From: Flavobacterium branchiophilum NBRC 15030 = ATCC 35035
GTDB lineage: Bacteria > Bacteroidota > Bacteroidia > Flavobacteriales > Flavobacteriaceae
Length of the DNA stretch: 64,000 nt
Direction: 5' to 3'
Assembly (NCBI RefSeq): GCF_002217205.1
Contig: NZ_MUGT01000055.1
Location: 1 to 64,000, forward strand
A program made the translations under genes and the position numbers. This document shows, piece after piece, positions 949-21,358 of this stretch. The notes under the pieces are model-generated. The model was not told where the DNA came from, did no database searches, and saw only the letters and a program-made list of their open reading frames with translations. The first letter of the stretch is position 1; every line of letters begins with the position of its first letter.

Positions 949-2427
949 ATGTCATTATATAAAATAAATAAAATAAAAATATATAATTCACTTACAGCAG
1001 TAAAAGAAGATTTCAATCCCATAAACGAAGGCAGCATTGGAATGTATGTCTGTGGCCCCACTGTGTACAGCAATGTACATTTAGGAAACGTACGCACCTT
1101 TATGTCCTTTGATTTGATTTTTCGTTATTTCAAACATTTGGGTTACAAAGTTAGATATGTAAGAAATATAACCGATGTCGGTCATATTGTTGATGATGTA
1201 GATGAAGGAGAAGATAAAATTGCAAAAAAAGCACGTATAGAAAAACTTGAACCAATGGAAGTTGTTCAACGTTATACTGTTGATTTTCATCAAATTCTAA
1301 AAGCATTCAATTTTTTGCCACCAAGCATAGAACCCACCGCAACAGGGCATATTATTGAACAAATAGAAATCATCAAAACCATTATAGACAAAGGATTTGC
1401 TTATGAAATTAACGGATCTGTATATTTCGATGTAATCAAATTTAATGAAAAACACCATTATGGGCAGCTAAGTGGACGAAATATCGAAGACATGTTAGCC
1501 AATACAAGAGAACTTGATGGCCAATCTGATAAAAAAAACCAACAAGATTTTGCCTTATGGAAACGGGCCGAACCCGAACACATCATGAGGTGGCCTTCGC
1601 CTTGGAGCGATGGTTTTCCAGGTTGGCATCTAGAGTGTACTGCCATGAGTACCAAATATTTAGGCACTCATTTTGACATTCACGGCGGCGGAATGGATTT
1701 AAAATTTCCGCATCACGAATGTGAAATTGCTCAAAATCAAGCTGCAACAGGCCATACACCAGTCAATTATTGGATGCATGCCAATATGCTGACTTTAAAT
1801 GGTAAAAAAATGGCTAAATCAACAGGTAATAATATATTACCTGGCGAAATACTTACAGGAGAAAATCCTTTTTTAAGTAAAGCTTTTCCTGCTACGGTCG
1901 CTCGTTTTTTTATGTTGCAAGCCCATTATCGTAGCAATTTAGATTTTTCAAACGAGGCCATTTTGGCAGCCGAAAAAGGATTTAATCGATTGATGGAAGC
2001 ATTACATTTGCTAAAAGATATTCAACCGCAAAAACAAACCTCTATCGATTTAAAAACTTGGAAATCAAATTGTTATGAGGCTATGAACGACGATTTTAAT
2101 GCCCCAATTTTAATAGCAAATCTATTTGAGGCTGTAAAATATATCAATTTGCTCAACGACAAAAAAGAAACAATTCATGCAGACGATTTAGCCGATTTTA
2201 CAAAAACGTTACATGCCTTTGTTTTTGATGTTTTAGGACTCGAAGACACAAAAGCAAGTACCAATCAAAGTAACAAACTTGAAAATGTGGTTCAAATACT
2301 CATCGAAATGAGAAAAGAAGCCCGAGACAATAAAGATTTTGCTTTGTCTGATCAAATCAGAAACCAATTGTTAGCCATAGGTATCCAACTTAAAGACGGT
2401 AAAGAAGGCACAACTTTTAGTGTTTAA
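949..2427 (+). CDS. cysS: Cysteinyl-tRNA synthetase
   Basis: Class I aminoacyl-tRNA synthetase that charges tRNA-Cys. The HIGH-type signature is HLGN at residues 44-47, followed by VRT. The zinc-binding set is C35 in YVCGPTVY, the Cys of [10 protein letters not shown] and the HHE of [11 protein letters not shown]. The KMSKS loop reads KMAKS (287-291) in [11 protein letters not shown]. At 492 aa it has standard length, including the C-terminal anticodon-binding helices ([15 protein letters not shown]). It is the second gene of the folE operon, with 14 nt after folE and 11 nt before yidD. Confidence 0.97.
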
Positions 2428-5404: not shown

Positions 5405-5410
5405 ATTATT

Positions 5411-5875
5411 TTATTTTAATTCGCCAAACATGCTTGTTAAAGTCGTTTTTCTAAATTCAAAAATCTCCTTAAGTTTAGGTGCTACTAATATGGGATGTAT
5501 CATTTGTCCTACAATACCTAATGGTAATTTGTAATCTACAATATCTTCCATTTCTATTCCTCCTGGAATTGCTTTGAAAAAATGTTTATGATGCCATAAT
5601 GAATAAGGACCAAATCGTTGTTCATCTACAAAATAATGTTTATCATCTACCTGAGTAATTTCTGTAACCCATTTTGTAGGTATTCCTGCTATGGGGGTTA
5701 CAATATATTGAATAATTTGTCCTGCAAACATGGGTTTGTCATCGCCTGAAAGGGTTTTGAAACCCATATATGGAGGCGTTATTTTTTTTAAATTGGCTGG
5801 ATTTGAAAAAAACTCCCAAGCTTGATCTAAACTAATGGGAAGTTTTTGTTTGGTTTCTAATCTGTATATTTTCAT
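5411..5875 (-). CDS. SRPBCC (START-like) domain protein
   Basis: A 154-aa single-domain protein of the SRPBCC/polyketide-cyclase fold. It opens with a strand and the ISLDQAWEFFSNPANLKKITPP helix common to the group. It continues with WVTEITQVDDKHYFVDEQRFGPYSLWHHKHFF, and ends with a long C-terminal helix (LKEIFEFRKTTLTSMFGE). The fold forms a hydrophobic ligand cavity; the ligand is unknown. It lies 6 nt upstream of the photolyase in the same direction, so a role linked to light or DNA damage is plausible but only inferred from position. Confidence 0.75.
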   Translation of the reverse strand: MKIYRLETKQKLPISLDQAWEFFSNPANLKKITPPYMGFKTLSGDDKPMFAGQIIQYIVTPIAGIPTKWVTEITQVDDKHYFVDEQRFGPYSLWHHKHFFKAIPGGIEMEDIVDYKLPLGIVGQMIHPILVAPKLKEIFEFRKTTLTSMFGELK

Positions 5876-5989: not shown

Positions 5990-7243
5990 TTAAACATCAT
6001 GCTTTTCAGATGGCAACTCAAAAATTTCTAAATTAAAATAGGGCACGGCAGCAATAAAGTGGTCGAATAAATCAGATACGATATATTCATAATTTTCCCA
6101 TTTTTTATCTTTTGAAAAAGCATATATTTCAAGCGGAATTCCATGTTGTGTGGGTTGTAATTGTCTGCAAACCAAAAACATATCTTGATTGATTGCGGCA
6201 TGTCTTTCTAAATATTTTGTTATATAAACTCTAAATAAACCCAAATTAGTAAGATTTCTTCCGTTTACTAATACGTCTTTATTAATTTGATGATTCGCAT
6301 TATAGATGTCAATTTCTGATTGTTTTTGGGAAATATAATGATGAATCAATTGAATTTTTGATAAATTTTCGATTTCTATGTCTGATAAAAAATGAACACT
6401 ATGCGATTTAATCAATAAAAAACGTTTTATCCTCCTTCCAGATGAATTTTGCATCCCTCGCCAGTTTTTAAATGAATCTGATATCAAACTATATGTAGGA
6501 ATAGTTGTAGTAGTCAAATCAAAATTACGAACTTTTACCGTAGCTAAATTGATTTCAATCACATCGCCATCTGCACCAAATTTGTCGAATGTTACCCAAT
6601 CGCCAATGCGAACCATATCATTTAATGACACCTGAACACTAGCTACAAAACCCAAAATAGTATCTCTAAAAATCAATAATATAACAGCAGAAACAGCTCC
6701 AAAAGCTGTAAATAAAGTATTTGTTTTTATTTCAAATAATTCTAATATAATTACAAATAATCCTATCATCCAAAGAATGATCATAAATACTTGAATATAA
6801 CTGTCTATGGGTTTATCGCTATATTGGGGTATTAATTTTAAATAATCTCTTAATGCATTGAATATGGTTCTGATGATCCATAAGGTAAGCAAAACAATAT
6901 AAATACCTATAAATTTACCAAAAAAACCTTCCCAATATACATAATCATTTAAAATTATAGGAACTGATTTATAAATAAATAAAAGTGGTATTAAATAGGA
7001 AATGTATTTTGCTGTTTTGTTTGCAATTAAAAAATCATCAAACTTTGAGTGGGTTCTTTGTGCAATTATTGCTAAAACACTTACTAAAATAAACCTAAAA
7101 ATTTTATAAATTAGATAGGCAAACAACCATAAAATAATGATATTCACTATCAAACTACTATAAGATGCAACCGTATCATGCCATCCTATTTTTTTGAAAA
7201 GCGGATAACACCACCCAAATATTTTGTTTATAAATTTAAGCAT
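5990..7243 (-). CDS. Mechanosensitive ion channel, MscS family (YbdG-like)
   Basis: A 417-aa membrane protein. Four to five hydrophobic segments occupy roughly residues 25-190. They are followed by the MscS core, with the pore-lining helix (FGAVSAVILLIFRDTILGF) and the beta domain VRIGDWVTFDKFGADGDVIE, VKVRNFDLTTTTIPTYSLIS. The pattern SFKNWRGMQNSSGRRIKR is typical of the YbdG/YnaI branch with a longer cytosolic tail. Such channels release solutes on hypo-osmotic shock from the inner membrane. Its start overlaps the end of the upstream DUF3817 gene by 8 nt, so the two are translationally linked. Confidence 0.88.
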   Translation of the reverse strand: MLKFINKIFGWCYPLFKKIGWHDTVASYSSLIVNIIILWLFAYLIYKIFRFILVSVLAIIAQRTHSKFDDFLIANKTAKYISYLIPLLFIYKSVPIILNDYVYWEGFFGKFIGIYIVLLTLWIIRTIFNALRDYLKLIPQYSDKPIDSYIQVFMIILWMIGLFVIILELFEIKTNTLFTAFGAVSAVILLIFRDTILGFVASVQVSLNDMVRIGDWVTFDKFGADGDVIEINLATVKVRNFDLTTTTIPTYSLISDSFKNWRGMQNSSGRRIKRFLLIKSHSVHFLSDIEIENLSKIQLIHHYISQKQSEIDIYNANHQINKDVLVNGRNLTNLGLFRVYITKYLERHAAINQDMFLVCRQLQPTQHGIPLEIYAFSKDKKWENYEYIVSDLFDHFIAAVPYFNLEIFELPSEKHDV

Positions 7244-7550: not shown

Positions 7551-7854
7551 ACAACTCGGCTGCTAAATAGCTGTTTTTTATGAATTATTTAATAATTGAT
7601 TCCTAAACAGCAAAATCGACTTTGAATGTAATAATTTAATATTATATTTATCAATTTTATTTTAAAATAAAAATAATAATACTATATTGAGTATAATTCA
7701 TCAATAATTAAATAAAATTAAAATTTATATTGATAATAGTTCAATAAAATAATATATATACATAAATTTAACATTATTTATAAAATTTATTGATTTTACA
7801 TCTGCTTTAAATCACTTTTTTTAAATTATTATCAAATAATAGGTTTTTTAAACG
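7551..7854. other. AT-rich intergenic region between divergent genes
   Basis: About 300 nt of very AT-rich sequence between the divergent DUF3817 and helicase genes. The only structure seen is a 7-bp inverted repeat, GCTGTTT at 7570 and AAACAGC at 7605. No reading frame or RNA gene was recognised. Confidence 0.5.
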
Positions 7855-7862
7855 TACTTTTG
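7855..7862 (+). promoter_or_regulatory. -7 promoter element for helicase gene
   Basis: TACTTTTG matches TAnnTTTG exactly, 20 nt before the ATG at 7883. Confidence 0.6.
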
Positions 7863-7882
7863 CAAAAATCAATTTTTATCAA

Positions 7883-9421
7883 ATGTCATACCCATTAGTT
7901 GAAGCCGAATTAGACGAAAAAAAAGTTTTATATGATTATCAAGAATACGATATTGATGCCATTTTTGAAAGAATAGACAACCAAAAAAGCAATTTTCATT
8001 TGCTGTACCAATTGCCTACGGGTGGTGGTAAAACAGTCGTTTTTTCTGAAATAGTTAGAAGGTATATTAAAAAAAATAATAAAAAAGTAGTAATTTTAAC
8101 TCATAGAATTGAGCTTTGCAAACAAACTTCAAAAATGCTCAAGGGTTTTGGTGTAAAAAATAAAATTGTAAACAGCAAAATCAAAGATTTGCCAGACCAG
8201 CATGAATATTCTTGTTTTGTAGCCATGGTAGAAACCTTAAAAAATAGGTTAAATGATGAAAAATTATTGATAGATGATGTAGGTTTATTAATAATTGACG
8301 AAGCTCATTATAATTCTTTTAGAAAATTATTTAGTTCTTTTGAAAATTCTTTTATTCTTGGCGTTACGGCCACTCCTTTAAGTTCCAATGTTGGGCTTCC
8401 AATGCACGAAAATTATGATGAATTAATCGTAGGAGATACCATACAAAACTTGATAGATAATGGCTTTTTAGCAAAAGCTACTACCTATAGTTATGATGTT
8501 GGACTTACTTCATTAAAAGTAGGTATAAATGGCGATTATACAGTAAAATCGTCAGACGATTTATATACTAATATGGCAATGCAAGAAAAATTATTGCACG
8601 CTTACGCCGAGAAATCTTTAGGCAAAAAAACATTAATTTTCAACAACGGTATCAACACCTCGCTATATGTTTATGAAACTTTTAGAGAAGCAGGCTATGA
8701 CATTAGACATTTAGATAATACCAATAGTAACGAAGAACGTAAAGAAATTTTGCATTGGTTTAAAAAAACGCCACATGCTATTCTTACTTCTGTTGGAATT
8801 TTGACAACAGGTTTTGACGAACCTACCGTAGAGACCATCATCCTAAATAGGGCTACAAAATCATTAACGTTATATTACCAAATGATAGGGCGAGGGTCTC
8901 GTCGATTGCCCAACAAAGACAGTTTTACGGTAATCGATTTGGGTAACAATGCTGCCCGATTTGGTTTGTGGAACGAGCCCATCAATTGGCAACATATTTT
9001 TAAATCGCCAGAGTTTTACCTCGAAAATCTAAGAGACGATGCCGAAATTGAAATGAATTTTAAATATGTAATGCCTGATGAATTACGTCAAAAATTCAGT
9101 AAAACTCCCGATGTTACTTTTGATGTGGACGACGAACACAAATTGGCCATCAAGTTCAATTTGCGTTCAAAAATTGTACTCGAAAAATCGCTCGACCAGC
9201 ATGCGGCCATGTGTGTAGATAATACCGAAACACTTCAAGAAGCCCGTGCATTAGCCAAAGAATTATTAGCAGATATAGAAAGTAGAATAAAAAAATATTC
9301 AAATTGTTTGAGTCAATGTAGTAAAAATTATAGAGAATGGCTAGTCGATGATTATATTAAAAACCTCAATTTATTGATAGGGAAGAAGTATCGTGAAAAA
9401 ATTATGAACGAACCAGATTAA
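7883..9421 (+). CDS. DEAD/DEAH-box superfamily 2 helicase
   Basis: A 512-aa SF2 helicase of the SSL2/RecQ-like COG1061 type. Motif I is PTGGGKT (45-51), with Ia around LTHRIELC. Motif II is DEAH (139-142) and motif III is TAT (162-164) in GVTATPL. Motif VI is QMIGRGSRRLP, preceded by a motif V segment GILTTGFDEP. The C-terminal ~130 residues beyond the helicase core are family-specific and rich in charged helices. It is probably an ATP-dependent DNA or RNA translocase. It is not linked to an endonuclease gene, so a restriction role is not supported. It is transcribed alone and followed by a palindromic repeat element. Confidence 0.85.
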   Translation: MSYPLVEAELDEKKVLYDYQEYDIDAIFERIDNQKSNFHLLYQLPTGGGKTVVFSEIVRRYIKKNNKKVVILTHRIELCKQTSKMLKGFGVKNKIVNSKIKDLPDQHEYSCFVAMVETLKNRLNDEKLLIDDVGLLIIDEAHYNSFRKLFSSFENSFILGVTATPLSSNVGLPMHENYDELIVGDTIQNLIDNGFLAKATTYSYDVGLTSLKVGINGDYTVKSSDDLYTNMAMQEKLLHAYAEKSLGKKTLIFNNGINTSLYVYETFREAGYDIRHLDNTNSNEERKEILHWFKKTPHAILTSVGILTTGFDEPTVETIILNRATKSLTLYYQMIGRGSRRLPNKDSFTVIDLGNNAARFGLWNEPINWQHIFKSPEFYLENLRDDAEIEMNFKYVMPDELRQKFSKTPDVTFDVDDEHKLAIKFNLRSKIVLEKSLDQHAAMCVDNTETLQEARALAKELLADIESRIKKYSNCLSQCSKNYREWLVDDYIKNLNLLIGKKYREKIMNEPD

Positions 9422-9429
9422 TTTTTTAG

Positions 9430-9507
9430 GGAGCTTGATCCCGCTTTTCGTTACAATCTTTTGTGGCGAACCCCGCCACAAAAGGATTTTCACTACAATC
9501 GGGGCTA
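9430..9507 (+). repeat. Variable-core palindrome family, complete copy
   Basis: The left flank GGAGCT..TCCCGCTTTTCG then TTACAATCTTTT, and the right flank AAAAGGATTTTCACTACAAT then CGGGGCTA, enclose the inverted repeat TTTTGTGGCG / CGCCACAAAA. The element fills the gap between two helicase genes and could act as a terminator-like hairpin. The flanks recur elsewhere in the window with unrelated cores. Confidence 0.75.
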
Positions 9508-9549
9508 GATTCATTTTCAAAAGTAACGCTTTCTTAAAACAATATTTTC

Positions 9550-10848
9550 ATGTCAAATTTTATCGATTTAGGTTTAATAATTGCTTTTGTTGAAACGCTT
9601 AAAAGTCTGAATATCAATACACCAACTGAAATTCAACAACAAGTTATTCCACAAATTCTACAAGCACAACATGATGTAGTAGGCATAGCACACACAGGTC
9701 ACGGAAAAACAGTTGCTTTTGGTGTACCCATTTTGCAACAAATAGACGTGCAAAACCTTCATGTTCAAGCTGTTATATTAGCACCAACCAGAGAACTAGG
9801 ACAACAAATAACGCACCAACTACAACAATTTGCTCAACATCATTCGTCAATCAACATTTTGGCTACTTGTGGAGGCAATCCAATAAAACCACAAATTGCG
9901 GCCTTGCAAAATAACCCCCAAATTGTGGTAGCTACGCCAGGTCGATTGCTAGATTTACTCGAACAAAAGGTACTCAACTTGCAACACGTGCAATTTGTAG
10001 TTTTGGATGAAGCAGACGAAATGATGGCCATATTACACGACAGTTTGACAAAAATCGAACAATATTTGCCCAAAAATAAACGACAGTTCTTGTTTACAGC
10101 AACATATTCGGGGGGATTAAAACAGTTGGTACAACAAAATTTTTCAAAAAATACTGCTATTATCACATCGGTTGTAGGTACAAAAACCAATACAAACATC
10201 AAACACCATTATGTAATAGTAGATCCAATAGAAAAATTAGCAGTATTATTACATTTATTAAATTCAAAACCAAATCAAAAAGGAATTATTTTTTGTAAAA
10301 CAAAAGCAGCTGTCAATAAATTAGCCAAAAATTTAGCCATCAAAAAGTTTACCTCGGGTGCCATTCACAGTAGTTTGACACAGCCTATAAGAGACAAAAT
10401 GATGTCGCAATTTAGAGCAGGACATATTCCTATTTTAGTAGCCACAGACTTGGCCGCACGTGGTATCGATATAGATGACATTCAATATATTGTAAATTAT
10501 CACTTACCAGATACGTTAGAAACATACATTCACCGCAGTGGCAGAAGTGCCCGAAATACTCACAAAGGCTTGGTTTACAACATCATACAAGAAGAGGAAT
10601 TAGCCCAATTGCAAACTATTGAAAAAGCGATTGAGTTGCCCATTTTAAAATATGAAAAACCTGACAATAAAAGTATTGAAGATAATAATACGATGATATG
10701 GGCCAAACAAATTTATAAAACCAAACCCAATCATCAAATATCTAATGAATTGAAAAACGACATTAAAGCAATTTTTCATCATTTAACAAAAGATGAATTG
10801 ATTGATAAAATTCTGGCCAATCACTTGCAACAAAACGCTAAAAAGTAA
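9550..10848 (+). CDS. DEAD-box RNA helicase
   Basis: A 432-aa ATP-dependent RNA helicase. Nearly the full DEAD-box motif set is visible: Q-motif region TPTEIQQQVIPQ, motif I HTGHGKT, PTRELG, TPGR, DEAD in LDEADEMM, TAT in FTATYSGG, ARGID in LAARGIDI, and HRSGRSAR. Motif I reads HTGHGKT rather than the common A(Q/K)TGxGKT, still keeping GKT. The C-terminal tail of about 70 residues has no RNA-binding DbpA-like domain that I can see. Likely roles are ribosome assembly or RNA turnover. It is separated from the upstream helicase by the palindrome element, so it is probably a separate unit. Confidence 0.9.
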   Translation: MSNFIDLGLIIAFVETLKSLNINTPTEIQQQVIPQILQAQHDVVGIAHTGHGKTVAFGVPILQQIDVQNLHVQAVILAPTRELGQQITHQLQQFAQHHSSINILATCGGNPIKPQIAALQNNPQIVVATPGRLLDLLEQKVLNLQHVQFVVLDEADEMMAILHDSLTKIEQYLPKNKRQFLFTATYSGGLKQLVQQNFSKNTAIITSVVGTKTNTNIKHHYVIVDPIEKLAVLLHLLNSKPNQKGIIFCKTKAAVNKLAKNLAIKKFTSGAIHSSLTQPIRDKMMSQFRAGHIPILVATDLAARGIDIDDIQYIVNYHLPDTLETYIHRSGRSARNTHKGLVYNIIQEEELAQLQTIEKAIELPILKYEKPDNKSIEDNNTMIWAKQIYKTKPNHQISNELKNDIKAIFHHLTKDELIDKILANHLQQNAKK

Positions 10849-11391
10849 CCAATATCTAAGCCAATATGCTCCTTTTTTGGTTCTTATTATTTGAACTATA
10901 ATTAATATTATGTAAAATAGAAAATTACAATTATTCATTTTGCCTAACGCATGCCTTTCACATGATACAGAGCATTGTTACAGATTTATTTTAAAATATA
11001 GTTAAAAAATAAATACAATTTTATAAAGCAAGTATTATAAATAAAAAAATGTTTTATTGAAAAATTTGCATCTCACAACTTGATTTTTCAGATGATTTCA
11101 ATTATAAATATAATAGTAAATTTATATTTACCTAAATCAAACTTATTTGATTCCATTTTTTTATCAGGAATTCATTTGCAAATGTGAAATGAGTCTATAA
11201 TATCGAATTTATTTATCTTTTATATTTGAATTTAATATTTAGCTGTATTTTACAAAAGTATAAAGCAATTGATTAGGGGCTTTTTTTTATAAGAAATGGA
11301 TAAAAAAACAGTTGAAACAAGGTAAAAATAACACAATAAACGTTCCAAAAAAGCTGCCCCCCCTCCTACTCTTTTAGTGGTATTTTATTAC
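10849..11391. other. Long AT-rich intergenic region before tracrRNA
   Basis: About 540 nt between the DEAD-box gene and the tracrRNA terminator, without a convincing reading frame. A run of C residues occurs near 11357 and a weak hairpin with a T-run (AAAGC...GCTTT) near 11263-11288, which could end the DEAD-box transcript. Nothing else is recognised. Confidence 0.4.
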
Positions 11392-11417
11392 AAAAAAAAG
11401 TCCCACCGAAGCAGGAC
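11392..11417 (-). terminator. Intrinsic terminator of tracrRNA
   Basis: Read on the minus strand, GTCCTGC-TTCG-GTGGGAC forms a seven-pair stem (two G-T pairs) closed by a stable TTCG tetraloop and followed directly by eight T. Confidence 0.85.
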
Positions 11418-11482
11418 TAAAGATTTTACATCTACGGCATATAGCCTTATTGTGATAAGATTAAAGATTAGAAATATTAATC
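11392..11482 (-). ncRNA. tracrRNA of the type II-C CRISPR locus
   Basis: On the minus strand this region carries an anti-repeat. The plus-strand sequence TTGTG (11450) and the 16-mer GATTAAAGATTAGAAA (11459-11474) are identical to the CRISPR repeat and are separated by a 4-nt mismatch (ATAA against GTTT). The transcript would then pair with crRNA over 5+16 bp around a 4x4 internal loop. Downstream it can form a small hairpin GGC-TATAT-GCC, and it ends in a 7-bp stem with a TTCG loop (plus strand 11400-11417) followed by eight T (11392-11399). An exact -7 box lies just upstream at 11489. tracrRNA guides RNase III processing and holds crRNA in Cas9. The boundaries are inferred, not measured. 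Confidence 0.88.
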
Positions 11483-11488
11483 ATGCTG

Positions 11489-11496
11489 CAAATATA
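11489..11496 (-). promoter_or_regulatory. -7 promoter element of tracrRNA
   Basis: The minus strand reads TATATTTG, an exact TAnnTTTG, placed so that transcription would begin at about 11482, just before the anti-repeat. It lies inside the longest possible cas9 reading frame, arguing that this part is not coding. Confidence 0.7.
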
Positions 11497-11584
11497 TAAA
11501 ACATTTTTAAATGTATATAGCGAAAAAACTTTTTTTTTAAAATATTTTTTCCAATATATTTACAAAAAATTTGAAAACACAAAA

Positions 11585-14500
11585 ATGGCAAAAATATTAG
11601 GATTAGATTTAGGCACAAACAGCATTGGCTGGGCGGTGGTGGATGACACAAAAAACAAAATTATTGACGCTGGAGTAAGAATTTTTCCAGAAGGTGTGAA
11701 ATCAGATACCATCGGAAAAGGAGATAAGGAGGAAAGCAAAAACGCTAAGCGAAGAACAAGCAGACAAACCAGAAGAGGGTTTTACAGAAAAAGGCTTAGG
11801 AAAATTAAACTATTAAGAACACTTATAAATTTTAATATGTGTCCTTTGAAACATGAAGAACTAGATGTTTGGAGTAAATGGGATAAAATTAAAAAGAAAG
11901 AAGGTAGAATGGCACCTGAACTTTTCTTACCTGATAATCATCCTTATTGTTTATGGTTAAAGCAAAATCCTTATGAATTAAGAAATAAAGCACTAATTGA
12001 AGATGTAACACTATATGAATATGGAAGAGTCTTATATCATTTAATTCAAAGACGTGGTTTTTTAAGTAATAGAAAAGGAAAGGATGACGGTAAAATTTAC
12101 AAAGGGAAAGAAGGAATTAAAGGAATAGAAGATACACAAAAGGAGATACAGAACTCTACTTTAGGAAAATATTTGTTTGATATTTTGCCAAAAGAGGGAG
12201 AGCCATTTAAAATTATACAAGATGAAAAGGGTAATGAATTAAGGGTTCGTTCTCGATATACATTACGAGATATGTATATTGCTGAATTTGAAGCAATATG
12301 GAATAGACAAGCACCACAGTTAGGACTTGATAAGATTGATTACTTAAATGAGAAAAAGATTTTACTAAAAGGAGGATTAAAAAATAAAAGGAATAATAAT
12401 AAAATTGAATATTTCAAAAAGAGTAAAGGGATAGATAATGTAGAAATTATTGAAATAAAAGATGAATTGTCTAATACGGATAAAGAAAAATTTATTTTAA
12501 AAGTAATTTCAAAAATACCTTTGAAAGAGTTTTTAGGAGGGAGAATTGAAAAAGATGAAGATGAAAATATCAAATTTAAAAGCAATGATAGTGTTTTGTT
12601 TTGGCAACGCCCATTGCGATCTCAAAAAAATTTACTTTCTAAATGTCGATTTGAGCCAGATTTAAAAGATGACAATGGAAAGTTTATTCAAAAAGGAAAG
12701 ACACCATGTCATTTATCACATCTTTTGTTTGAAGAATTCAGAGCTTATGGATATATTAATAATATTGAATATGGAAAAAAACAAAAATTAGAAGAAACTC
12801 AACGGGAGCAAGTCTTAGAATTAATTAATTCTAAAGACAGTAATTTCAAGTTTTCTGAAGTTAAAAAGAAATTAAAATTGGAGTATGAAACTTTTAATTT
12901 TGATGACGATGCTCCGGTTAATGGAAATTATACAACAAAACATCTAAATTCATTATTTCCAAAAGAAATTCTTGAAAAAGAATATGTTATCAAAGTTAAT
13001 AATATTGATATTGTTGAATATGGTTATGAACGCATTTGGCATTTATTTCATTATTGCGATGATAATGATGTTTTAATCGAAAAATTGCAAAAGGAATATG
13101 GTTTAGAAGAAAAGAATATTGAAAAAGTTTCTAAAACAAATTTAAAAGAAGGATATTCAAATGTTTCTTTAAAAGCAATTAAAAATATTTTGCCTTATCT
13201 AAAGGAAGGAAGAAGATTGAGTGATGCGGTAATTCTTGGTGGCGTTAGAAATGCTTTTGGAAAAAAGTGGGAATTATACAAAGAAGATCATAAGGAATTA
13301 GAGAAAGATTTATTGAAAATAAATCAAGATAAATCTAACAAAGAAGGCGAAGCCATAGAAAAGATTAAACATTATTTAATCGAAAATAAATATGGTTTTG
13401 TTGAAAATGATATTAGATTTAAAAAGTTATACCATCATAGTCAAGAAGTGATCGAGGTTAAACAAAAAGATAAAATAGAAGATATTGATAATTTAAGAAA
13501 TCCTATAGTCCAACAAGGAGTAAATGAGGTAAAACGATTAGTCAATTTATTAATTGAAGAACATGGTAAATTTGACCAAATAAGGGTTGAGTTAGGAAGA
13601 GATTTAAAGAACAACAAAATGAAACGTCAAGAATTAACTTATAAAATCTCTCAAAACACTGCTAAAAATGAAAATGCAAAACAGCTATTAACCGAGTATG
13701 CATTAAGACATAGTAGAGAAAATATTCAAAAAGTACTATTGTATCAAGAACTGCAAGAAAGAGGAACTATTGCTGTTTGTCCGTACACAAATAAAACGAT
13801 AAATATTTCTGATGTACTAGGAAGGGCAAACAAAATTCAAATTGAACATATAATACCAAAAAGTATTTCATTGGATGATAGTTTTGCTAATAAAACCTTA
13901 TGTGATGCAAAATTTAATGGACTAAAAGGTGAGCGCACTCCTTATGAATTTTATCAAATAAATAAAGATGTAAATTTATGGGGTGGTGCAAAAACTTGGG
14001 AAGAAATTGAAAGAAGAGTTTTTACTGTGTTGCCTTATCCTAAAGCAAAACGATTTACTTCAAAAACAAAATTTGATAAAAACGATTTTATAGAAAGACA
14101 ACTTAACGATACTCGTTATATAAGTAAAAAAACTGCGGAAATTTTATCTCAAATTTGTGGTGATGTTCGAGTAATGCCAGGAAGTTTAACAGCTGAATTA
14201 AGAAGACTGTGGGGCTTGAATAATATTTTACAACCAGCCTTTACAATTGATATTCCAAATTTGCATATTGACGAAAATAAACACATTCCTCATTATGTAG
14301 TTTTAGATAAAGATAAAAATCCAATTGCTTCTCAAAAAATTTATAATGAAAAACCTAAATTAAAACCAAATGAAACAACCTTGTTTGGTAAAGTTGATAA
14401 AGGTATTTTTAAATCAAAAGAGCAATATATAAAATTTCAAGTTGACACGCCTGAATTAATAAATGGCGAATATTGGGCAAAACTGTTGTTGTCAAATCCT

Positions 14501-16249
14501 AAAAGTATTGTTAGGGTTTTTAAAGAAAAACCAGAAAATACAGAAGATGAAATAGTAGTTAGAGGTAAAATAGAGAAAGAAAAGTTTAAGCATGAAGGGT
14601 TAAACACAATCAATGCACAAGGGAAAGACAATGGTGTTTATTGGGCAAAACTAACTATTTCAAATAAAGAATTTAAAAAACCTATAAAAGAAGACCAACC
14701 TAAGAAAAATGGAAAACAAATCTTGTTATTTGGAGAAGTAAAAGAAGGTGTATTTTCTTCTTACGTATATCAATGTGATGCTGAAAAAGTAGAAGATGGT
14801 AAATATTGGTTAGTCCTTGATATTGATTTTGAAAAAGTTGATTTTGAAAAAGCTTTAAATGACAAATCAACCGTAAAAGAAAATCAAATTGTAATCCAGG
14901 GAATTACAAATGATGATAATGTATTTGTTTCTGATATGGACAACCAACATCAGTTTACAATGAATGAAGGCAAAGGCAAATATTATGTATTGTTTGATAT
15001 TATTTCTGAAGTAGATGATTTTTATCCTGTAAAAACGGAAATCCCTAAAATAGAAGAAGGACAAGCATTAGTGGAAGGTACTGTGTGGGTAGATAAATAT
15101 TCGGGTGAAATAAAGTTTGACCCCAAAAAGAATAGAGAAGACCATCGTCATCACGCTATAGATGCTTTAGTAATTGCGTTAACAAAAGAAACTTATTTTC
15201 AACAGTTAAGTAAACACAATGCCTCGTCTGAAAACAAAAAAAGAGGCATAGAATATGATAACGACCAATTAGATTTTGCAGAACCATGGAATGGTTTTCA
15301 TACCGATGCTCAAAAAACAATAAATAGTATTTTAATTTCTCATAAACAGAATAGAAATATACTAACTAAAATCACCAAGAAGATTACAAAAAATGGTAAA
15401 ACCTATAAAAGTGAAGGAATGGCGGTTAGAGGACAATTGCACAAAGAATTTGTCTTTGGTTTTAGAACTCCACCAAATGGAGATGAAGGTTATCACATAA
15501 GAAAATCTGTGGAAAGTTTGGTTACAGATAAACAGATAAATAAAATTGTAGACACAAGCATCAGAGAAATAATTATAAAAGCAAGAAGAGCCGAAATTCC
15601 ATTGTATAAAGAAATTGAAAACTTGTCAAAACAATTGAAAAATCCAAGGCTATCTGAAATCGAAGAAAAAAACATTAATGATAAAATAAGTCAATTAAGA
15701 AATGATATTAAACAATTATATACGTTACCTAATAAAAAAGGTGATCCAATTCCAATAAAAAAAGTAAGAGTTGCCGAAGAAATGGGGAAAGCACAGAAAT
15801 TAAAATCTTCTATAAATCAATTTGTTAATCCAAGGAATAACCATCATATTGTTATTTATAAAGATGAAGAAGGACAGCTTAAAGACACAGTTACTAATTT
15901 TTGGAAAGTAGTAGAAAGAGTAAAACAAAAAGAAGAAATTTATAGGATTCCATCTCCCGTAGTTGGTCAATCTGTTCCAAAAGAACTTATTTTAACCTTT
16001 CAAGAAAATGATATGTTCATACTTGGACTTTCTGAAGATGAATATAATGATAACATTAATAACTCATCATTTTTAAGTAATTATTTGTATAGAGTTCAAA
16101 AAATATCTGATGGAGATTATTCATTCAGACATCATTTAGCATCCACAGTAACAAATAAAAAAGAAGAAATAAGGATTGCAAGTATGAAAAAATTCCAAGA
16201 AATGAACCCAATTAAAATTGTAGTTAATATATTGGGTAAAAACAAGTAA
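11585..16249 (+). CDS. cas9: CRISPR-associated endonuclease Cas9, type II-C, with tandem-repeat insert
   Basis: RNA-guided double-strand DNA nuclease, 1554 aa from MAKILGLDLGTNSIGW. RuvC-I has D8, and the Arg-rich bridge helix is NAKRRTSRQTRRGFYRKRLR. RuvC-II is IRVELGRDLKNN with E669. HNH is IEHIIPKS with H755 and the following NKTLCDAKFNG. RuvC-III is HRHHAIDALVIAL with H1190 and D1193, so both nuclease sites look intact. About 300 residues (883-1184) are inserted between LRRLWGLNNIL and RuvC-III. They contain tandem modules with glycine anchors at 935, 994, 1050, 1106 and 1165, and GxY(W/Y) anchors at 961, 1017, 1072 and 1131. The frame opens earlier, at 11483, but that stretch holds the tracrRNA promoter and lacks homology, so 11585 is chosen. 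Absence of csn2/cas4 and the two-gene cas1-cas2 set indicate II-C. Confidence 0.96.
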   Translation: MAKILGLDLGTNSIGWAVVDDTKNKIIDAGVRIFPEGVKSDTIGKGDKEESKNAKRRTSRQTRRGFYRKRLRKIKLLRTLINFNMCPLKHEELDVWSKWDKIKKKEGRMAPELFLPDNHPYCLWLKQNPYELRNKALIEDVTLYEYGRVLYHLIQRRGFLSNRKGKDDGKIYKGKEGIKGIEDTQKEIQNSTLGKYLFDILPKEGEPFKIIQDEKGNELRVRSRYTLRDMYIAEFEAIWNRQAPQLGLDKIDYLNEKKILLKGGLKNKRNNNKIEYFKKSKGIDNVEIIEIKDELSNTDKEKFILKVISKIPLKEFLGGRIEKDEDENIKFKSNDSVLFWQRPLRSQKNLLSKCRFEPDLKDDNGKFIQKGKTPCHLSHLLFEEFRAYGYINNIEYGKKQKLEETQREQVLELINSKDSNFKFSEVKKKLKLEYETFNFDDDAPVNGNYTTKHLNSLFPKEILEKEYVIKVNNIDIVEYGYERIWHLFHYCDDNDVLIEKLQKEYGLEEKNIEKVSKTNLKEGYSNVSLKAIKNILPYLKEGRRLSDAVILGGVRNAFGKKWELYKEDHKELEKDLLKINQDKSNKEGEAIEKIKHYLIENKYGFVENDIRFKKLYHHSQEVIEVKQKDKIEDIDNLRNPIVQQGVNEVKRLVNLLIEEHGKFDQIRVELGRDLKNNKMKRQELTYKISQNTAKNENAKQLLTEYALRHSRENIQKVLLYQELQERGTIAVCPYTNKTINISDVLGRANKIQIEHIIPKSISLDDSFANKTLCDAKFNGLKGERTPYEFYQINKDVNLWGGAKTWEEIERRVFTVLPYPKAKRFTSKTKFDKNDFIERQLNDTRYISKKTAEILSQICGDVRVMPGSLTAELRRLWGLNNILQPAFTIDIPNLHIDENKHIPHYVVLDKDKNPIASQKIYNEKPKLKPNETTLFGKVDKGIFKSKEQYIKFQVDTPELINGEYWAKLLLSNPKSIVRVFKEKPENTEDEIVVRGKIEKEKFKHEGLNTINAQGKDNGVYWAKLTISNKEFKKPIKEDQPKKNGKQILLFGEVKEGVFSSYVYQCDAEKVEDGKYWLVLDIDFEKVDFEKALNDKSTVKENQIVIQGITNDDNVFVSDMDNQHQFTMNEGKGKYYVLFDIISEVDDFYPVKTEIPKIEEGQALVEGTVWVDKYSGEIKFDPKKNREDHRHHAIDALVIALTKETYFQQLSKHNASSENKKRGIEYDNDQLDFAEPWNGFHTDAQKTINSILISHKQNRNILTKITKKITKNGKTYKSEGMAVRGQLHKEFVFGFRTPPNGDEGYHIRKSVESLVTDKQINKIVDTSIREIIIKARRAEIPLYKEIENLSKQLKNPRLSEIEEKNINDKISQLRNDIKQLYTLPNKKGDPIPIKKVRVAEEMGKAQKLKSSINQFVNPRNNHHIVIYKDEEGQLKDTVTNFWKVVERVKQKEEIYRIPSPVVGQSVPKELILTFQENDMFILGLSEDEYNDNINNSSFLSNYLYRVQKISDGDYSFRHHLASTVTNKKEEIRIASMKKFQEMNPIKIVVNILGKNK

Positions 16250-16290: not shown

Positions 16291-16602
16291 ATGCTTACTA
16301 TTTTAAAAAAAACGTTTAAACGCTTCTTATAAATGATTTCTTATTTAAAAGAAATGAGTAAAAGCTTCTTATAAATGTTTGCTAATTTAAAAGAAATGAG
16401 TAAACATTTTTTATAAATGCCTACTAGTTTAAAGAAAATAAGTAAACGTTTTTTATAAATGCACACTAGTTTAGAGGAAATGAGTAAACATTTTTTATAA
16501 ATGCACACTAGTTTAGAGGAAATAAGTAAACGTTTGTTATAAAGACTTACTGGTTTAGAGTAAATAGTTCAACATTTATAATAAATGCTGATTAGTAATT
16601 AA
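16291..16602 (+). repeat. Tandem 42-bp repeat; each unit is a 13-codon mini-ORF
   Basis: Six consecutive 42-bp units start at 16291, 16333, 16375, 16417, 16459 and 16501. Each reads ATG, 12 codons and TAA, with the next ATG touching the stop (TTATAAATG). Predicted peptides are MLTILKKTFKRFL, MISYLKEMSKSFL, MFANLKEMSKHFL, MPTSLKKISKRFL, MHTSLEEMSKHFL and MHTSLEEISKRLL. A seventh unit (16543) has lost its ATG and gained an internal stop. An eighth (16585) is a stub, ATG CTG ATT AGT AAT TAA. The invariant parts are ATG, codon 5 TTA, codon 10 AAA, codon 13 TTA and TAA; codons 2-4 vary most. Units 4-6 are the most alike, so expansion seems recent there. Translation is unproven: a minisatellite of length divisible by three would show the same frame in every copy. 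Confidence 0.85.
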
Positions 16603-17201: not shown

Positions 17202-17444
17202 ATGGCAAGACAAAGTATCACCCTAGCCAATCAAAACGATGAGTGGCTAAAGCAACAAGTGGCTAAGGAAGAATTTACCAGCAAAAGCGAAGCGGTAAAT
17301 CATCTCATCAAGCTAGCACGGGAGCTAGAGGCATATCATGACTATGTGCAAATGAAAATTGACAGAGGTTTAACTAGTGGTTTTAGTACCAAAACCAAAG
17401 AACAACTATTGGCTGAGTTCAAAGAAAGACTAAAAATTGTATAA
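17202..17444 (+). CDS. ParD-like ribbon-helix-helix antitoxin, without a toxin gene
   Basis: An 80-aa protein of the ParD/CopG type. The N-terminal strand QSITLANQNDEWLKQQV is followed by the helix-turn-helix part FTSKSEAVNHLIKLARELEAY, and the C-terminal toxin-binding arm by LAEFKERLKIV. In complete systems ParD represses its own operon and neutralises a ParE toxin (gyrase poison) encoded immediately downstream. Here the next 120 nt contain no ParE frame, only a 21-codon open stretch with no resemblance, so the toxin appears lost. It could also be a stand-alone RHH regulator. It is preceded by an exact -7 box. Confidence 0.8.
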   Translation: MARQSITLANQNDEWLKQQVAKEEFTSKSEAVNHLIKLARELEAYHDYVQMKIDRGLTSGFSTKTKEQLLAEFKERLKIV

Positions 17445-17566: not shown

Positions 17567-17896
17567 ATGAATAATAATATGATAGAATTTAATGAAGGGC
17601 ATCATACTTATTTTGTTTACATAATTACCAATAAGTTTCGCTCAACTTATTACATTGGAATGACAAATAACTTGGGATTGCGATTACTTCAACATAAAGA
17701 AAATATAGAAAAAGGAATTAAAACATTTGCCTCTAAATACAATATTGAGTTTTTGGTATTTTACGAAAAGTTTACTTGGGTTCAAAAGGCAATAGAAAGA
17801 GAAAAAGAATTAAAAGGGTGGAAAAGAGAAAAAAAATTAGAATTAATTAGAAATTTTAATCCAAATTTTGAATTTTTAAACGATCGATTTATGTAA
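17567..17896 (+). CDS. GIY-YIG domain protein
   Basis: A 109-aa single GIY-YIG domain of the UPF0213/YhbQ type. The motif is HTYFVYIITNKFRSTYYIGMT, so GIY-YIG reads VYI...YIG. It is followed by NLGLRLLQHK with the catalytic-type Arg, ERE in AIEREKELKGWKREKK, and NFNPNFEFLND at the end. Proteins of this size are widespread in Bacteroidota and are presumed small structure-specific nucleases with unknown substrates. The ATG at 17567 gives a short leader; the later Met5 is an alternative start. An almost perfect 26-bp inverted repeat lies directly downstream. Confidence 0.85.
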   Translation: MNNNMIEFNEGHHTYFVYIITNKFRSTYYIGMTNNLGLRLLQHKENIEKGIKTFASKYNIEFLVFYEKFTWVQKAIEREKELKGWKREKKLELIRNFNPNFEFLNDRFM

Positions 17897-17913: not shown

Positions 17914-17987
17914 TTTGTCATTCCGACGAAGGAGGAATCACATAACATGAGTAACAAATGCGATTCCTCCTCCGTCGGAATGACAAA
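17914..17987. repeat. 26-bp inverted repeat after the GIY-YIG gene
   Basis: Arms 17914-17939 and 17962-17987 are complementary except for one position (25 of 26) and enclose 22 nt. The arms contain GTCATTCCGACG and GGAGGAATC. Base composition is GC-rich against the local background. It is consistent with a mobile or REP-like palindrome; a T-run for termination is absent. Confidence 0.85.
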
Positions 17988-18013: not shown

Positions 18014-18087
18014 CGTTTTCATGGTCTTAAACAGCCAAACCACAAAGACGATGTAAGAGTAATCTGTGCATCAGTGGCAATTTTAAA

Positions 18088-19651
18088 GTTGTGGTTTACA
18101 AACACCAAAATAATATTTTTTATTGGTGTGTTTGTGAATTTATTTGATTAAAGATTAGAAAACACGATATGCAATAGTACAAACACAATCATCACTGCCT
18201 TGTTGTGGTTTACAAACACCAAAATAATATTTTTTATTGGAGTGTTTGTGAATTTATTTGATTAAAGATTAGAAAACACGATATGTGGTGCTACTTTTGG
18301 AGCAATAGTGGCTGGGTTGTGGTTTACAAACACCAAAATAATATTTTTTATAGGTGTGTTTGTGAATTTATTTGATTAAAGATTAGAAAACACGATATGT
18401 GAATGGATTCTTGCTAGAGAAAAAGACATGTTGTGGTTTGATTAAAGATTAGAAAACACGATATGTGAATCCATTGAATCAATGTCCGCAGATACGTTGT
18501 GGTTTGATTAAAGATTAGAAAACACGATATGTGCACGGATAACCGAAAAAATAAGTCTGATGTTGTGGTTTGATTAAAGATTAGAAAACACGATATGCTT
18601 TGCCTTCAAATGAATTAATGGCATCAAGTTGTGGTTTGATTAAAGATTAGAAAACACGATATGAGTTTCTAAATTGAAAGATTTAGAACACTTGTTGTGG
18701 TTTGATTAAAGATTAGAAAACACGATATGAATGGTTAAGACGGCTTGGAGGCTCTGAAAGTTGTGGTTTGATTAAAGATTAGAAAACACGATATGTACAT
18801 TGGAACTGCACCGTGTTAGCAGTTGTTGTGGTTTGATTAAAGATTAGAAAACACGATATGCGTACTTTTAAGGAGCAGACTGATTTATGGTTGTGGTTTG
18901 ATTAAAGATTAGAAAACACGATATGAGATAGAAGCTACATCAGCTTATTTCGACAGTTGTGGTTTGATTAAAGATTAGAAAACACGATATGAACGCAGTA
19001 ATAGTTAAATCAGACCTTGATGTTGTGGTTTGATTAAAGATTAGAAAACACGATATGTTTTGTACCTGTGGAATTAAAGTTACCCCGGTTGTGGTTTGAT
19101 TAAAGATTAGAAAACACGATATGAATGCAACAAAAGGAATTTCAAACCAAAGTGTTGTGGTTTGATTAAAGATTAGAAAACACGATATGTCAAATATGAA
19201 AATATCCAAAGCAAGAAAAGTTGTGGTTTGATTAAAGATTAGAAAACACGATATGGCATTTTTCAAAACAAAATAAGAAAGGCTTGTTGTGGTTTGATTA
19301 AAGATTAGAAAACACGATATGTTATCTCGTGTGAACTGGATGAGACCGACAGTTGTGGTTTGATTAAAGATTAGAAAACACGATATGTTTACAGCCGATA
19401 AGTTGGAAAGCATTTCCGTTGTGGTTTGATTAAAGATTAGAAAACACGATATGTTTACAGCCGATAAGTTGGAAAGCATTGCCGTTGTGGTTTGATTAAA
19501 GATTAGAAAACACGATATGATAGTAAGCCTAATTTTTCTAGGCGTGGCAGTTGTGGTTTGATTAAAGATTAGAAAACACGATATGGTTTTGAATTTAAAA
19601 GAAAAAACCCTTAAAGTTGTGGTTTGATTAAAGATTAGAAAACACGATATG
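18088..19651 (+). CRISPR. Type II-C CRISPR array, 22 repeats and 21 spacers
   Basis: The standard repeat is 36 nt, starting GTTGTGGTTT and ending ACACGATATG. Repeat starts are 18088, 18202, 18316, 18430, 18496, 18562, 18628, 18694, 18760, 18825, 18890, 18956, 19022, 19088, 19154, 19220, 19286, 19352, 19418, 19484, 19550 and 19616. Spacers are 30 nt, except two of 29 nt (18796-18824 and 18861-18889). The first three repeats are 84 nt long because of a 48-nt insert after base 10. Spacers at 19388-19417 and 19454-19483 differ by one base. Repeat orientation is set by the tracrRNA anti-repeat: crRNA is read on the plus strand. The leader is probably on the left (boxA-like motif, propagated insert). 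After the last repeat, 30 nt are followed by GATTAATTG, perhaps a decayed repeat. Confidence 0.98.
18098..18373 (+). repeat. 48-nt hairpin-forming insert in three CRISPR repeats
   Basis: Copies occupy 18098-18145, 18212-18259 and 18326-18373. Each begins ACAAACACCA and contains GTGTTTGT 8-bp terminal complementarity around an AT-rich loop, then GAATTTATTT. Copies 2 and 3 each differ from copy 1 by one T-to-A change, whereas the flanking repeat parts are identical. TTT on both sides could be a 3-bp target duplication. Confidence 0.9.
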
Positions 19652-19707
19652 AGTTGGCTTGTTGCCTTCTGATATTCAAGGGATTAATTGTAAATATCGT
19701 TATAAAA

Positions 19708-19752
19708 AATGCCTCTTTATAGGACTGATAACCCTATATTGAGGCATTTTTT
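19708..19752. terminator. Bidirectional terminator between array and cas2
   Basis: AAAAAATGCCTC...TATAGG...CCTATA...GAGGCATTTTTT: an outer 6-bp and an inner 6-bp stem with an A-run and a T-run on either side. It would stop both the array transcript and the convergent cas1-cas2 transcript. Confidence 0.85.
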
Positions 19753-19757
19753 GTTTT

Positions 19758-20087
19758 CTAAAACAGCTCTAGCTGTACAGGCATTGGTACTTTTGGCAAC
19801 GGAGCTTGGCCCCAATAATTCATAATATTGCCAAACTGTTTGTCGGTTATCCGTACAACACTCACCTTGCCTAGTGGGGGCAACAATTGTACGATACGTT
19901 TTTCGTGTACGTCGGCACTCTCGCTACTGGCACAATGTCTTGTATATACAGAATATTGCATCATCGTAAATCCGTCGTTCAATAATTTGTTTCTAAAAAC
20001 CGAGGCATCTTTACGGTTTTTTTTTGTTGCTGTGGGCAGGTCAAAAAATACAAACAACCACATTATCCGATATCCGTTGAGTTCCAT
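19758..20087 (-). CDS. cas2: CRISPR-associated endoribonuclease/integration factor Cas2
   Basis: A 109-aa Cas2 of the type II kind, the structural partner of Cas1 in spacer integration. The N-terminal strand MWLFVFFDLPTATKKNRKDA carries the conserved Asp, followed by FRNKLLNDGFTMMQYSVYTRHC and a C-terminal VQLELF. The start at 20087 (MELNGYRIMWLFVFF) keeps the YRIMW segment seen in Bacteroidota homologues and overlaps cas1 by 25 nt. An internal ATG at 20063, sharing its A with the cas1 stop, is the alternative. It is transcribed toward the array and ends next to a bidirectional terminator. Its base composition is clearly more GC-rich than that of cas9. Confidence 0.93.
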   Translation of the reverse strand: MELNGYRIMWLFVFFDLPTATKKNRKDASVFRNKLLNDGFTMMQYSVYTRHCASSESADVHEKRIVQLLPPLGKVSVVRITDKQFGNIMNYWGQAPLPKVPMPVQLELF

Positions 20088-20962
20088 AACTTGGCATATT
20101 TTATTTTTTTGCGTTCGCCCGTATAACATTGTTGTAGCGAGCTGGCTGTTTTTTGTAAAGCCACCATCAAAGGGCTTTTTTCGTTTTCAAAATACACTGT
20201 TCGGGTTAGCAGTTGCAACAACTCGGCTTTTAGGGTGGTGTTCAACTCTTGTTCTTCAAATTTTTGCATCATCTCAAATACTTTTTCGTCCACCAGCGGT
20301 CTGTAGGGTTCCATAATGTCGTCTGCAAGGGCAAAGGCGTTGTATTTGTTTTTGTGATGAATGCCTAGCGTATTGAGCAAGCCACTGCCAGATAAGGCTC
20401 GTGCTGTGGCGGCTCGTAAAATGGCATAGCCATAATTTAGAAAATTGTTGGGATAGTTACCAAATCGCTCTCGCTTAAAATCAAATTCAAAAAACCGCTG
20501 CCAGTATTGGCTAGCCGCTACCCCTTCCATGTTGGTACTGTCGCCACTCAAAACTTTTGAGGCTAAAAAATCAAAGTGGTTTTTTTTGCCTTCCATTCGT
20601 TCCAAAAGGCTTCCTTGGTTTTTAATTTTTTCGACAATTGTTTGTTGCCACAATTGTTTTTTGAGCGGTACACTGGCTTCCAATTGGTTTCTAAAAATCT
20701 CTTGTTGCACGTGGTGGCTGTTGAGATTCATAAACATTCCTTGTGGCAAATGATTTTGATGACATACAATGATGGCGGCATTGTTTTCTATCAACAAATT
20801 CATGGCTCTGATGCTCAAATACACCTCTGGATTATCGACAACTACAAATCCTAAATCTTCGATTGGAATGGTGGTTTCTCTCCATTCGGTTTTGATAACC
20901 AATTGACGGTTTTTGGTAGAAACAGAGGCTTTGTTTTCTAATAAAATAGTACGTTTTAACAT
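20063..20962 (-). CDS. cas1: CRISPR-associated integrase Cas1, type II
   Basis: A 299-aa Cas1, the metal-dependent integrase that inserts new spacers. The type II form opens LKRTILLENKASVSTKNRQL. Catalytic residues are visible: E146 in STNMEGVAASQYW, H203 in LGIHHKNKYNAF, and E218 in ADDIMEPYRPLVD. Length and motifs are normal, so it should be active. It lies immediately upstream of and overlaps cas2. The pair is convergent with cas9 and separated from it by the array and three unrelated genes. Codon use is more GC-rich than cas9, suggesting a separate history. Confidence 0.95.
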   Translation of the reverse strand: MLKRTILLENKASVSTKNRQLVIKTEWRETTIPIEDLGFVVVDNPEVYLSIRAMNLLIENNAAIIVCHQNHLPQGMFMNLNSHHVQQEIFRNQLEASVPLKKQLWQQTIVEKIKNQGSLLERMEGKKNHFDFLASKVLSGDSTNMEGVAASQYWQRFFEFDFKRERFGNYPNNFLNYGYAILRAATARALSGSGLLNTLGIHHKNKYNAFALADDIMEPYRPLVDEKVFEMMQKFEEQELNTTLKAELLQLLTRTVYFENEKSPLMVALQKTASSLQQCYTGERKKIKYAKLWNSTDIG

Positions 20963-21172
20963 ATTTAAGTATTTAAAATTGAAGCTATTAAAACGGAATA
21001 ATGATTATTATTGTTGTATTTGATACTCCTTTTTTAAAGCCTTTAATCCAAAAATATGTTGAGGTTTAACTATTGATATTGTTTGAAATTTTGATAAATA
21101 ATTACTTGTTGCAACTGTTTTTTAAAAGAAGTTTATTATTACAAATAAAGTGGCTTTTTTGCAGACGCTGCG
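20963..21172. other. Intergenic region upstream of cas1
   Basis: AT-rich sequence that should hold the cas1-cas2 promoter; no exact -7 box close to the cas1 ATG was identified. Together with the palindromic element and promoter that follow, it fills 446 nt between divergent genes. Open frames here overlap the palindrome and look like chance. Confidence 0.4.
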
Positions 21173-21260
21173 TTAGGGATAGTAGTGGAAATCCTTTTTT
21201 GGGGCAGGGCTTTTTTTTGGCCCTGCCCCAAAAAAGATTGCAACGGATAGCCCGGCCCCT
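21173..21260 (-). repeat. Variable-core palindrome family, GC-rich core
   Basis: Minus-strand copy of the family. The plus strand reads GGGATAGTAGTGGAAATCC, a core of TTTTTTGGGGCAGGGC / GCCCTGCCCCAAAAAA, then GATTGCAACGGATAGCCCGG. The core is a 16-bp perfect inverted repeat unrelated to other copies. It lies between divergent promoters, so it cannot serve simply as a terminator of a neighbouring gene. Confidence 0.75.
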
Positions 21261-21358
21261 TGTGGGAACGCCCAAAAAAGGTTTGTGGTTTTGTAGTGAA
21301 GTTTTTTTTTGATATTATTCATCAAGTAAATTGTGTGTAGGGTTGTGGTTTGAAATTG

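Follow-up and report, generated by a model that had tools for sequence, protein, structure and literature searches.

Repeats of type II-C CRISPR arrays in several species of Flavobacterium carry related hairpins of a few dozen bases, all placed at one base of the repeat. We consider it probable that II-C repeats were invaded more than once by a small hairpin element that inserts after G(G/A)TTT, that this element survives where a repeat is dispensable, and that it probably disables the repeats it occupies. A curiosity of one locus thereby becomes a recurrent event, in which a small, apparently mobile hairpin sits at a single base of dispensable repeats in several species. Among open-licence papers we found no report of such inserts in CRISPR repeats, and the available portions of PMC3718332 and PMC5306136 hold nothing on inserts inside repeats.

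The array that started the analysis lies in a 64,000-nt stretch of the Flavobacterium branchiophilum genome (the window), which is a 3.58 Mb draft in 240 contigs. The CRISPR-Cas locus is of type II-C: a scan of the neighbourhood of Cas9, Cas1, Cas2 and the tracrRNA gave no fourth adaptation gene (Table 1). A later ATG at 11585 may be the true cas9 start, and the whole array comprises 22 repeats (18088-19651), with cas2 and cas1 behind it on the opposite strand. Of the ORFs between cas9 and the array that were scanned with Pfam, two have no match, one of them small (17202-17444), and a third encodes a GIY-YIG protein (17567-17896); in F. columnare, ParDE is reported from this interval (PMC8092290, available text). 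Other features of the locus are degenerate tandem repeats of ~60-70 nt behind cas9 (16320-16560, by eye), a near-perfect 30-nt inverted repeat directly upstream of the array (17914-17987), which by eye resembles palindromes dispersed in F. covae, and a Flavo-1 RNA (RF01705, 62.1 bits) that adjoins cas1 (21156-21261). The neighbouring spacers 18 and 19 (19388-19417 and 19454-19483) differ in sequence by a single base. Comparison of the spacers with phages returned three records at E 0.4, which we take as chance.

Table 1. Positions of features in the window and in other stretches of DNA
Feature	Stretch	Position	Strand	Remarks
tracrRNA candidate	window	11391..11474	-	16-nt anti-repeat 11474-11459, lower-stem strand, terminator hairpin, T-run; upstream of cas9
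cas9	window	11483..16249	+	1588-aa frame; RuvC_III and HNH_4 matches
Anti-repeat-like stretch upstream of repeat 1	window	18035..18046	+	predicted 7-bp pairing with the first bases of repeat 1
Repeat 1, 84 nt	window	18088..18171	+	oldest and 'extra' repeat; insert 18098-18145
Repeat 2, 84 nt	window	18202..18285	+	insert 18212-18259
Repeat 3, 84 nt	window	18316..18399	+	insert 18326-18373
Repeats 4-22, all 36 nt	window	18430..19651	+	19 exact copies, 18 spacers between
Leader region	window	19652..19757	+	terminator-like hairpin at its end before cas2; 3' flank conserved among related loci
cas2	window	19758..20129	-	Cas2_II match
cas1	window	20063..20962	-	Cas1_II match
Eco57I-type methylase gene	C168 (L125)	7665-11969		followed by a related hairpin
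RhuM-family gene	C168 (L125)	6214-7212		followed by a related hairpin
YhcG-type nuclease gene	C168 (L125)	4662-5660		followed by a related hairpin
Second insert kind	L012	~6476-6502		F. covae, first repeat
Second insert kind	L014	~1079-1105		F. columnare, first repeat
Second insert kind	L070	~8141	-	G345, long repeat
Shortened long repeat	L012	~6650-6662		F. covae, repeat 3
Shortened long repeat	L025	~1470-1500		G301

As originally predicted, repeats 1-3 measure 84 nt and repeats 4-22 measure 36 nt, the difference being 48 bases that follow base 10 of the repeat; a shared TTT allows the break to be drawn equally well after base 7, 8 or 9. The complementary ends of the insert, ACAAACAC and GTGTTTGT, do pair, and together with neighbouring bases the RNA is predicted to form a stem of 12 bp and an inner one of 4-5 bp. 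With the insert of repeat 1 as reference, those of repeats 2 and 3 each depart from it by a single T-to-A change, and the repeat parts are identical. A loop common to the three copies appears in no other genome found, which supports the proposal of one common source; this private loop and the single-base differences make a single insertion the most likely origin of all three. The mutations do not order the copies, as repeat 1 can be the ancestor of both repeat 2 and repeat 3. A search of the same genome gave no further full copy of the insert, either among the best 40 of 50 candidates scored or by exact pattern.

Inserts of this kind recur. We scanned a collection of genome contigs for the two halves of the repeat separated by 28-58 free bases and obtained three stretches, each with this hairpin at the identical base. 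They belong to F. covae AL-02-36, F. columnare NBRC 100251 and a MAG with the label Limnohabitans (G061). The last (L013 / L074) has a Flavobacterium-type II-C locus of 78 repeats, and its label or binning may be wrong. Searching 397 Flavobacterium genomes for the hairpin itself, with its constant arms required (the scan of repeat halves had no such requirement), gave 12 places in 6 genomes, all 12 inside II-C repeats. The II-C repeat is present in 62 of the 397, and these include all six hairpin genomes, so that the hairpin occurs in 6/62 repeat-bearing genomes versus 0/335 others (Fisher p 1.2e-5). The insert thus lies at the identical repeat base in seven other genomes, eight with the window's own, and this recurrence, together with the three near-identical copies in the window, argues that it is not a product of chance. 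All 16 matches with E 2e-7 or better in the eight genomes fall in arrays (in six of the eight, the best 40 candidates were scored). Among 60 relatives the gap pattern matched the window's genome alone, and an order-wide search matched 2 of 246 genomes, namely the window's own and G580. The G580 match, GTGGTTTACAAACAC, was rejected as a family member and attributed to chance: it lies outside any repeat seen, and such matches are no commoner than reversed-pattern controls. A phage or plasmid source was likewise discarded, since the hairpin pattern occurred in two viral contigs, both as near-identical coding-like stretches without a repeat; the phage search gave one weak match (E 0.2) and the plasmid search none.

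The original prediction had called repeats 1-3 leader-side and explained them by an insertion into the then leader-proximal repeat, copied by two recent spacer acquisitions. Three lines of evidence place the leader at the opposite end. Across six related loci, the 80 bases 3' of the arrays align with a mean score of 55.8 versus 33.1 when shuffled, and the 80 bases 5' of them with 34.3 versus 31.5. A comparison of 18 stretches that follow repeats in F. columnare with 35 in F. covae gave exactly one shared spacer start, the 5'-most; the F. columnare array meets a contig end at 18 repeats and is thus at least that long. In the available text of PMC8092290, base 36 of the F. columnare II-C repeat is leader-proximal and transcription runs toward the leader, and II-C systems are described as adding spacers at the last repeat, the first being the oldest, or 'extra', repeat (PMC12080349, available text). 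The leader is at the 3' end, on the cas2 side, and the oldest repeat is at the 5' end, so the long repeats are the oldest of the array. Recent leader-side copying of an 84-nt repeat is therefore not the simplest history, and with this correction of polarity the claim that Cas1-Cas2 copied so long a repeat twice at the leader, and hence tolerated it, loses its support. That account was also at odds with any related strain whose long repeats lie at the old end with the leader on the cas2 side, and this is in substance what we see: the leader is cas2-side, and F. covae, F. columnare, the MAG and G301 have their long repeats in the old half. What holds of the original prediction is the observation itself, the hairpin at the foot of the tracrRNA helix and the common source; its polarity does not hold, and its claim on Cas1-Cas2 tolerance is not supported.

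Counted from 5' to 3', the insert-bearing repeats are 1-3 of 22 in the window, 2 and 3 of 33 in F. covae, 2 and 4 of at least 18 in F. columnare (repeat 3 has no insert), 3 of 78 in the MAG, and 3 and 7 of 16 in G301. In three genomes the insert occupies spacer-less repeats that stand between tandem copies of the leader: G127 has three such copies of the insert, G242 has two, and G345 has a single repeat that holds two elements. Across the eight genomes, the 16 repeats with an insert (17 elements) are thus all either in the old half of an array or spacer-less beside extra leader copies, with the leader-proximal half of working arrays free of them. Tested against random placement, and leaving out G127, G242 and G345, whose long repeats lie beyond the leader, the old-end position has a combined p of 9e-6 per copy and of 0.03 with one event per array. 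The second figure is the safer one because copies within an array are not independent; the two copies of G301 share one spacer and represent a duplication, and since both were counted in the multi-copy test, its significance is overstated.

F. covae and F. columnare have, in their first repeat, a second kind of insert (CGAGGGACGAG..CGAAGTC), placed further to the right; the long repeat of G345 has it too.

At the RNA level, the insert falls where crRNA and tracrRNA meet. The tracrRNA candidate pairs with repeat bases 11-26 over 16 bp, as had been proposed; the lower stem of a normal repeat is predicted to have 8 bp with a 2x2 loop rather than the proposed 5 bp with a 4x4 loop. The insert lies at the foot of the 16-bp helix and can fold outward, as foreseen: in the predicted fold of the long repeat with the tracrRNA it forms a side stem, and the 16 bp and 6 bp of the lower stem are kept. 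A type II crRNA consists of a spacer followed by the first part of a repeat, so the guides affected would be the extraneous crRNA before repeat 1 and those of spacers 1 and 2, not those of spacers 1-3. In our model, a stem of ~12 bp would stand at the junction read by Cas9, with the 16-bp helix still possible, and these three guides would probably be weak or dead. The predicted folds point the same way for long repeats in general, which probably lose crRNA function: the tracrRNA interaction is predicted at -18.2 kcal/mol for the long versus -23.0 kcal/mol for the normal repeat, a drop similar to the one reported between the medians of consensus (-31) and extra repeats (-26) in the available text of PMC12080349. 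The insert also adds 48 bp to the distance between the spacer and a putative TTG promoter element in the repeat. The long repeats can be regarded as insertion mutants of the tracrRNA junction that nature has supplied in series.

Could the hairpin have been kept because it is useful? The first, extra repeat of II-C arrays is reported to be mutated in 60% of arrays, versus 5% for other repeats (PMC12080349, available text). In the window, this oldest repeat is altered, by the insert after base 10, where Cas9 meets the processed RNA. Like the mutated extra repeats of that study, as far as its available text describes them, the long repeats have a change at the old end, within the first 15 bases, with a weaker predicted tracrRNA interaction and an untouched acquisition end. 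They differ from them in that the change is a homologous hairpin of 48-93 nt (119 nt in tandem), at one base in several species, and is also found in repeats 2, 3, 4 and 7 and in spacer-less repeats. Selection for a hairpin that stops the extraneous crRNA of the extra repeat, as one more II-C route besides those in the available part of PMC12080349, is a possibility to which we give less than even credence. It fits the insert in repeat 1 of the window, the other insert in the opening repeat of both F. columnare and F. covae, and the insert in spacer-less repeats of three genomes. An anti-repeat-like CCAAACCACAA(C) near repeat 1 also speaks for it: this stretch lies 34-54 nt upstream in the window, G345 (L070) and G127 (L071), 3/7 arrays looked at, and its predicted pairing partner is the start of repeat 1 (18035-18046 with 18088-18097 in the window). 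Leader-repeat hairpins of such a kind were not identified in II-C systems, according to the available text of PMC12080349. However, the MAG and G301 carry the insert in repeat 3 (and 7) with repeats 1 and 2 free of it, so that it does not silence the extra repeat as a rule, and relaxed constraint on old repeats would give the same pattern without selection. On the reading that we prefer, the insert offers a case in which the silencing of a II-C array's extra repeat by mobile DNA can be put to the test. It resembles the insertion sequences that inactivate CRISPR-Cas (PMC10359306) in that mobile DNA breaks a CRISPR locus, and it differs from the cases in the available text of that paper, which lie in cas genes, in being a mini-element in a repeat.

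The elements form a family. Distinct CRISPR inserts are 48, 59, 62 or 93 nt long; the hairpin is constant among them, loop and tail vary, and a tandem pair of inserts measures 119 nt. The 17 CRISPR elements directly follow a fixed motif, GGTTT in 16 cases and GATTT in one, and the II-C repeat, which reads GTTGTGGTTT before and GATTAAAG after the insertion point, holds this G(G/A)TTT there. Neighbouring repeats of F. covae hold two different elements, and one repeat of G345 holds a head-to-tail pair, which argues for repeated, independent insertion. The long forms have TTT or G(G/A)TTT at both ends, the GTGATTATAATT form does not, and there is no constant target duplication among the elements.

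In the MAG, relatives are dispersed outside the array, as 14 distinct sequences with the same GTTTAC start and a similar loop. Their tails include GTGAATTTATTT, which is the window's tail, and GTGATTACAATT, one base from the tail of F. columnare. Their mean best alignment score is 40.3 versus 20.0 shuffled (0/500 shuffles as high), a score inflated by a collecting pattern that fixed part of the compared bases, though not the tails. An empty/occupied pair was also found there: of two intergenic units, one has an additional element of 46 nt that begins right behind GGTTT, as in the CRISPR repeat, so that the pair obeys the repeat's rule. The right flanks of the two agree for 7 bases only (CATTGTT) and then pass into a variable palindrome. 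On MAG contigs C286 and C309 (L120, L121), intergenic units lie ~0.8-2.4 kb apart between small genes in a cassette-like arrangement, each with hairpin elements and a palindrome that ends in CAACGAAACC. On contig C168 of the window's genome, three hairpins with a related core, CACCAAGTGTTTATTTTAATAGGTGT (E 0.0024 each), lie behind three genes of a restriction-like cluster. A search of the best-scoring candidates in the other six genomes gave no clear dispersed copy, and the dispersed-form pattern matched 1 of 150 Flavobacterium genomes, at the window's own array. The dispersed family is clearly seen in one MAG only.

From these observations we propose that a family of hairpin elements of ~46-93 nt in Flavobacterium-type genomes, presumably mobile at present, inserts directly 3' of G(G/A)TTT, and that a sub-lineage with the stem ACAAACAC/GTGTTTGT would have entered this single repeat position in several species.

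Two known kinds of element offer a comparison for what might move such hairpins. MITEs typically carry an inverted repeat at each terminus, together with a constant target duplication. Our element is like them in being small, non-coding, dispersed in one genome and presumably moved in trans; it is unlike them in having inverted arms near its left end only and an inconstant target duplication. REP/RAYT elements, of the IS200/IS605 type, carry a GTAG or CGTC tag. Common to these and our element are a short imperfect hairpin, a position 3' of a short fixed motif, the lack of a constant target duplication, tandem copies and, here, a REP-transposase-like gene in one of eight CRISPR loci. That gene, in the MAG (206 aa, L074 16391-17011), has the leader of the array on one side and cas2 on the other, stands ~5 kb away from the repeat with the insert, and scores 65.2 bits for REP_Tyr_transpos, below the cut-off of 80, and 26.3 bits for PF01797 (Y1 transposase), above the cut-off of 23. 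It is the best lead to a mover, although one locus in eight is not proof. We entertain, with reserve, the idea that a REP-associated tyrosine transposase (RAYT) moves the insert as a REP-type element, the CRISPR repeat having been a chance target. Contig C168, which also holds one of the genes with a PF01797 match, fits as well, as it pairs its three CACCAAGTGTTTATTTTAATAGGTGT hairpins with a methylase frame (Eco57I-type) holding in frame a REP_Tyr_transpos-like stretch of 52 bits, ~2.4 kb from the nearest hairpin. Against the idea, PF01797 matches (24 in total) occur in 7/8 genomes, F. covae having none, and the hairpin flanks 0/24 of these loci in the stretches scanned around the genes of the 7 genomes; two poor matches there, one with three mismatches and without arms (L092) and one loose core match (L105), are taken as chance. 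The insert also differs from REP/RAYT elements in its few copies and in the absence of a GTAG or CGTC tag from the hairpin ends of ten distinct inserts.

A bolder reading, which we rate as rather improbable, is a hairpin lineage specialised on II-C repeats that has the old end as a safe harbour and turns off repeats that are retired or spacer-less; it may have been recruited by the host to silence repeats, and a REP-type mover may be lodged in a CRISPR locus. In the genomes seen, this lineage would live only in Flavobacterium II-C repeats, at one base that it targets by its G(G/A)TTT motif.

For the three copies of the window we favour one insertion into an old repeat that would then have come to occupy three adjacent old repeats, with recombination or local re-insertion as perhaps likelier routes than spacer acquisition in the young array. 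The copies would persist because spacers are added at the other end, where acquisition is thus undisturbed, and because repeat 1 serves no spacer of its own. A history in which the array began with an 84-nt repeat, the two first acquisitions copied it (repeat 1 to 2 to 3) and repeat 4 lost the insert precisely strikes us as unlikely. It would keep the claim of Cas1-Cas2 tolerance for long repeats, shifted to the old end, and it accommodates three contiguous copies with different spacers around them, a private loop, and repeats 2 and 3 each one base off repeat 1. In a type II-A study, insertions of a base upstream of the ruler (bases 28-32) shifted the second cut and acquisition persisted, often less efficiently, with changes of 1-3 nt only (PMC6895254, available text), which still leaves room for such copying. 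Extrapolated from these small II-A changes, a 48-nt insert would be expected to misplace the second cut. The history also demands a precise 48-nt loss and, in F. columnare, with inserts in repeats 2 and 4 but not 3, an extra loss. The spacer-less long repeats beside their own leader copies in G127, G242 and G345, which gained no spacer, suggest that long repeats acquire poorly, if anything. An assembly artefact, conceivable in a 240-contig draft since arrays misassemble, is scarcely credible given the same insert at the same base in CP067379.1 (a record titled chromosome) and other assemblies.

Some long repeats show further peculiarities. G242, G127 and G345 (L072, L071 and L070) have tandem spacer-less units of repeat plus leader between the array and cas2, and the relic repeat of G345 has a 3' half unlike that of its 70 working repeats. 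In repeat 3 of F. covae and in the long repeats of G301, some of the first bases are missing, as if cut just before GGTTT.
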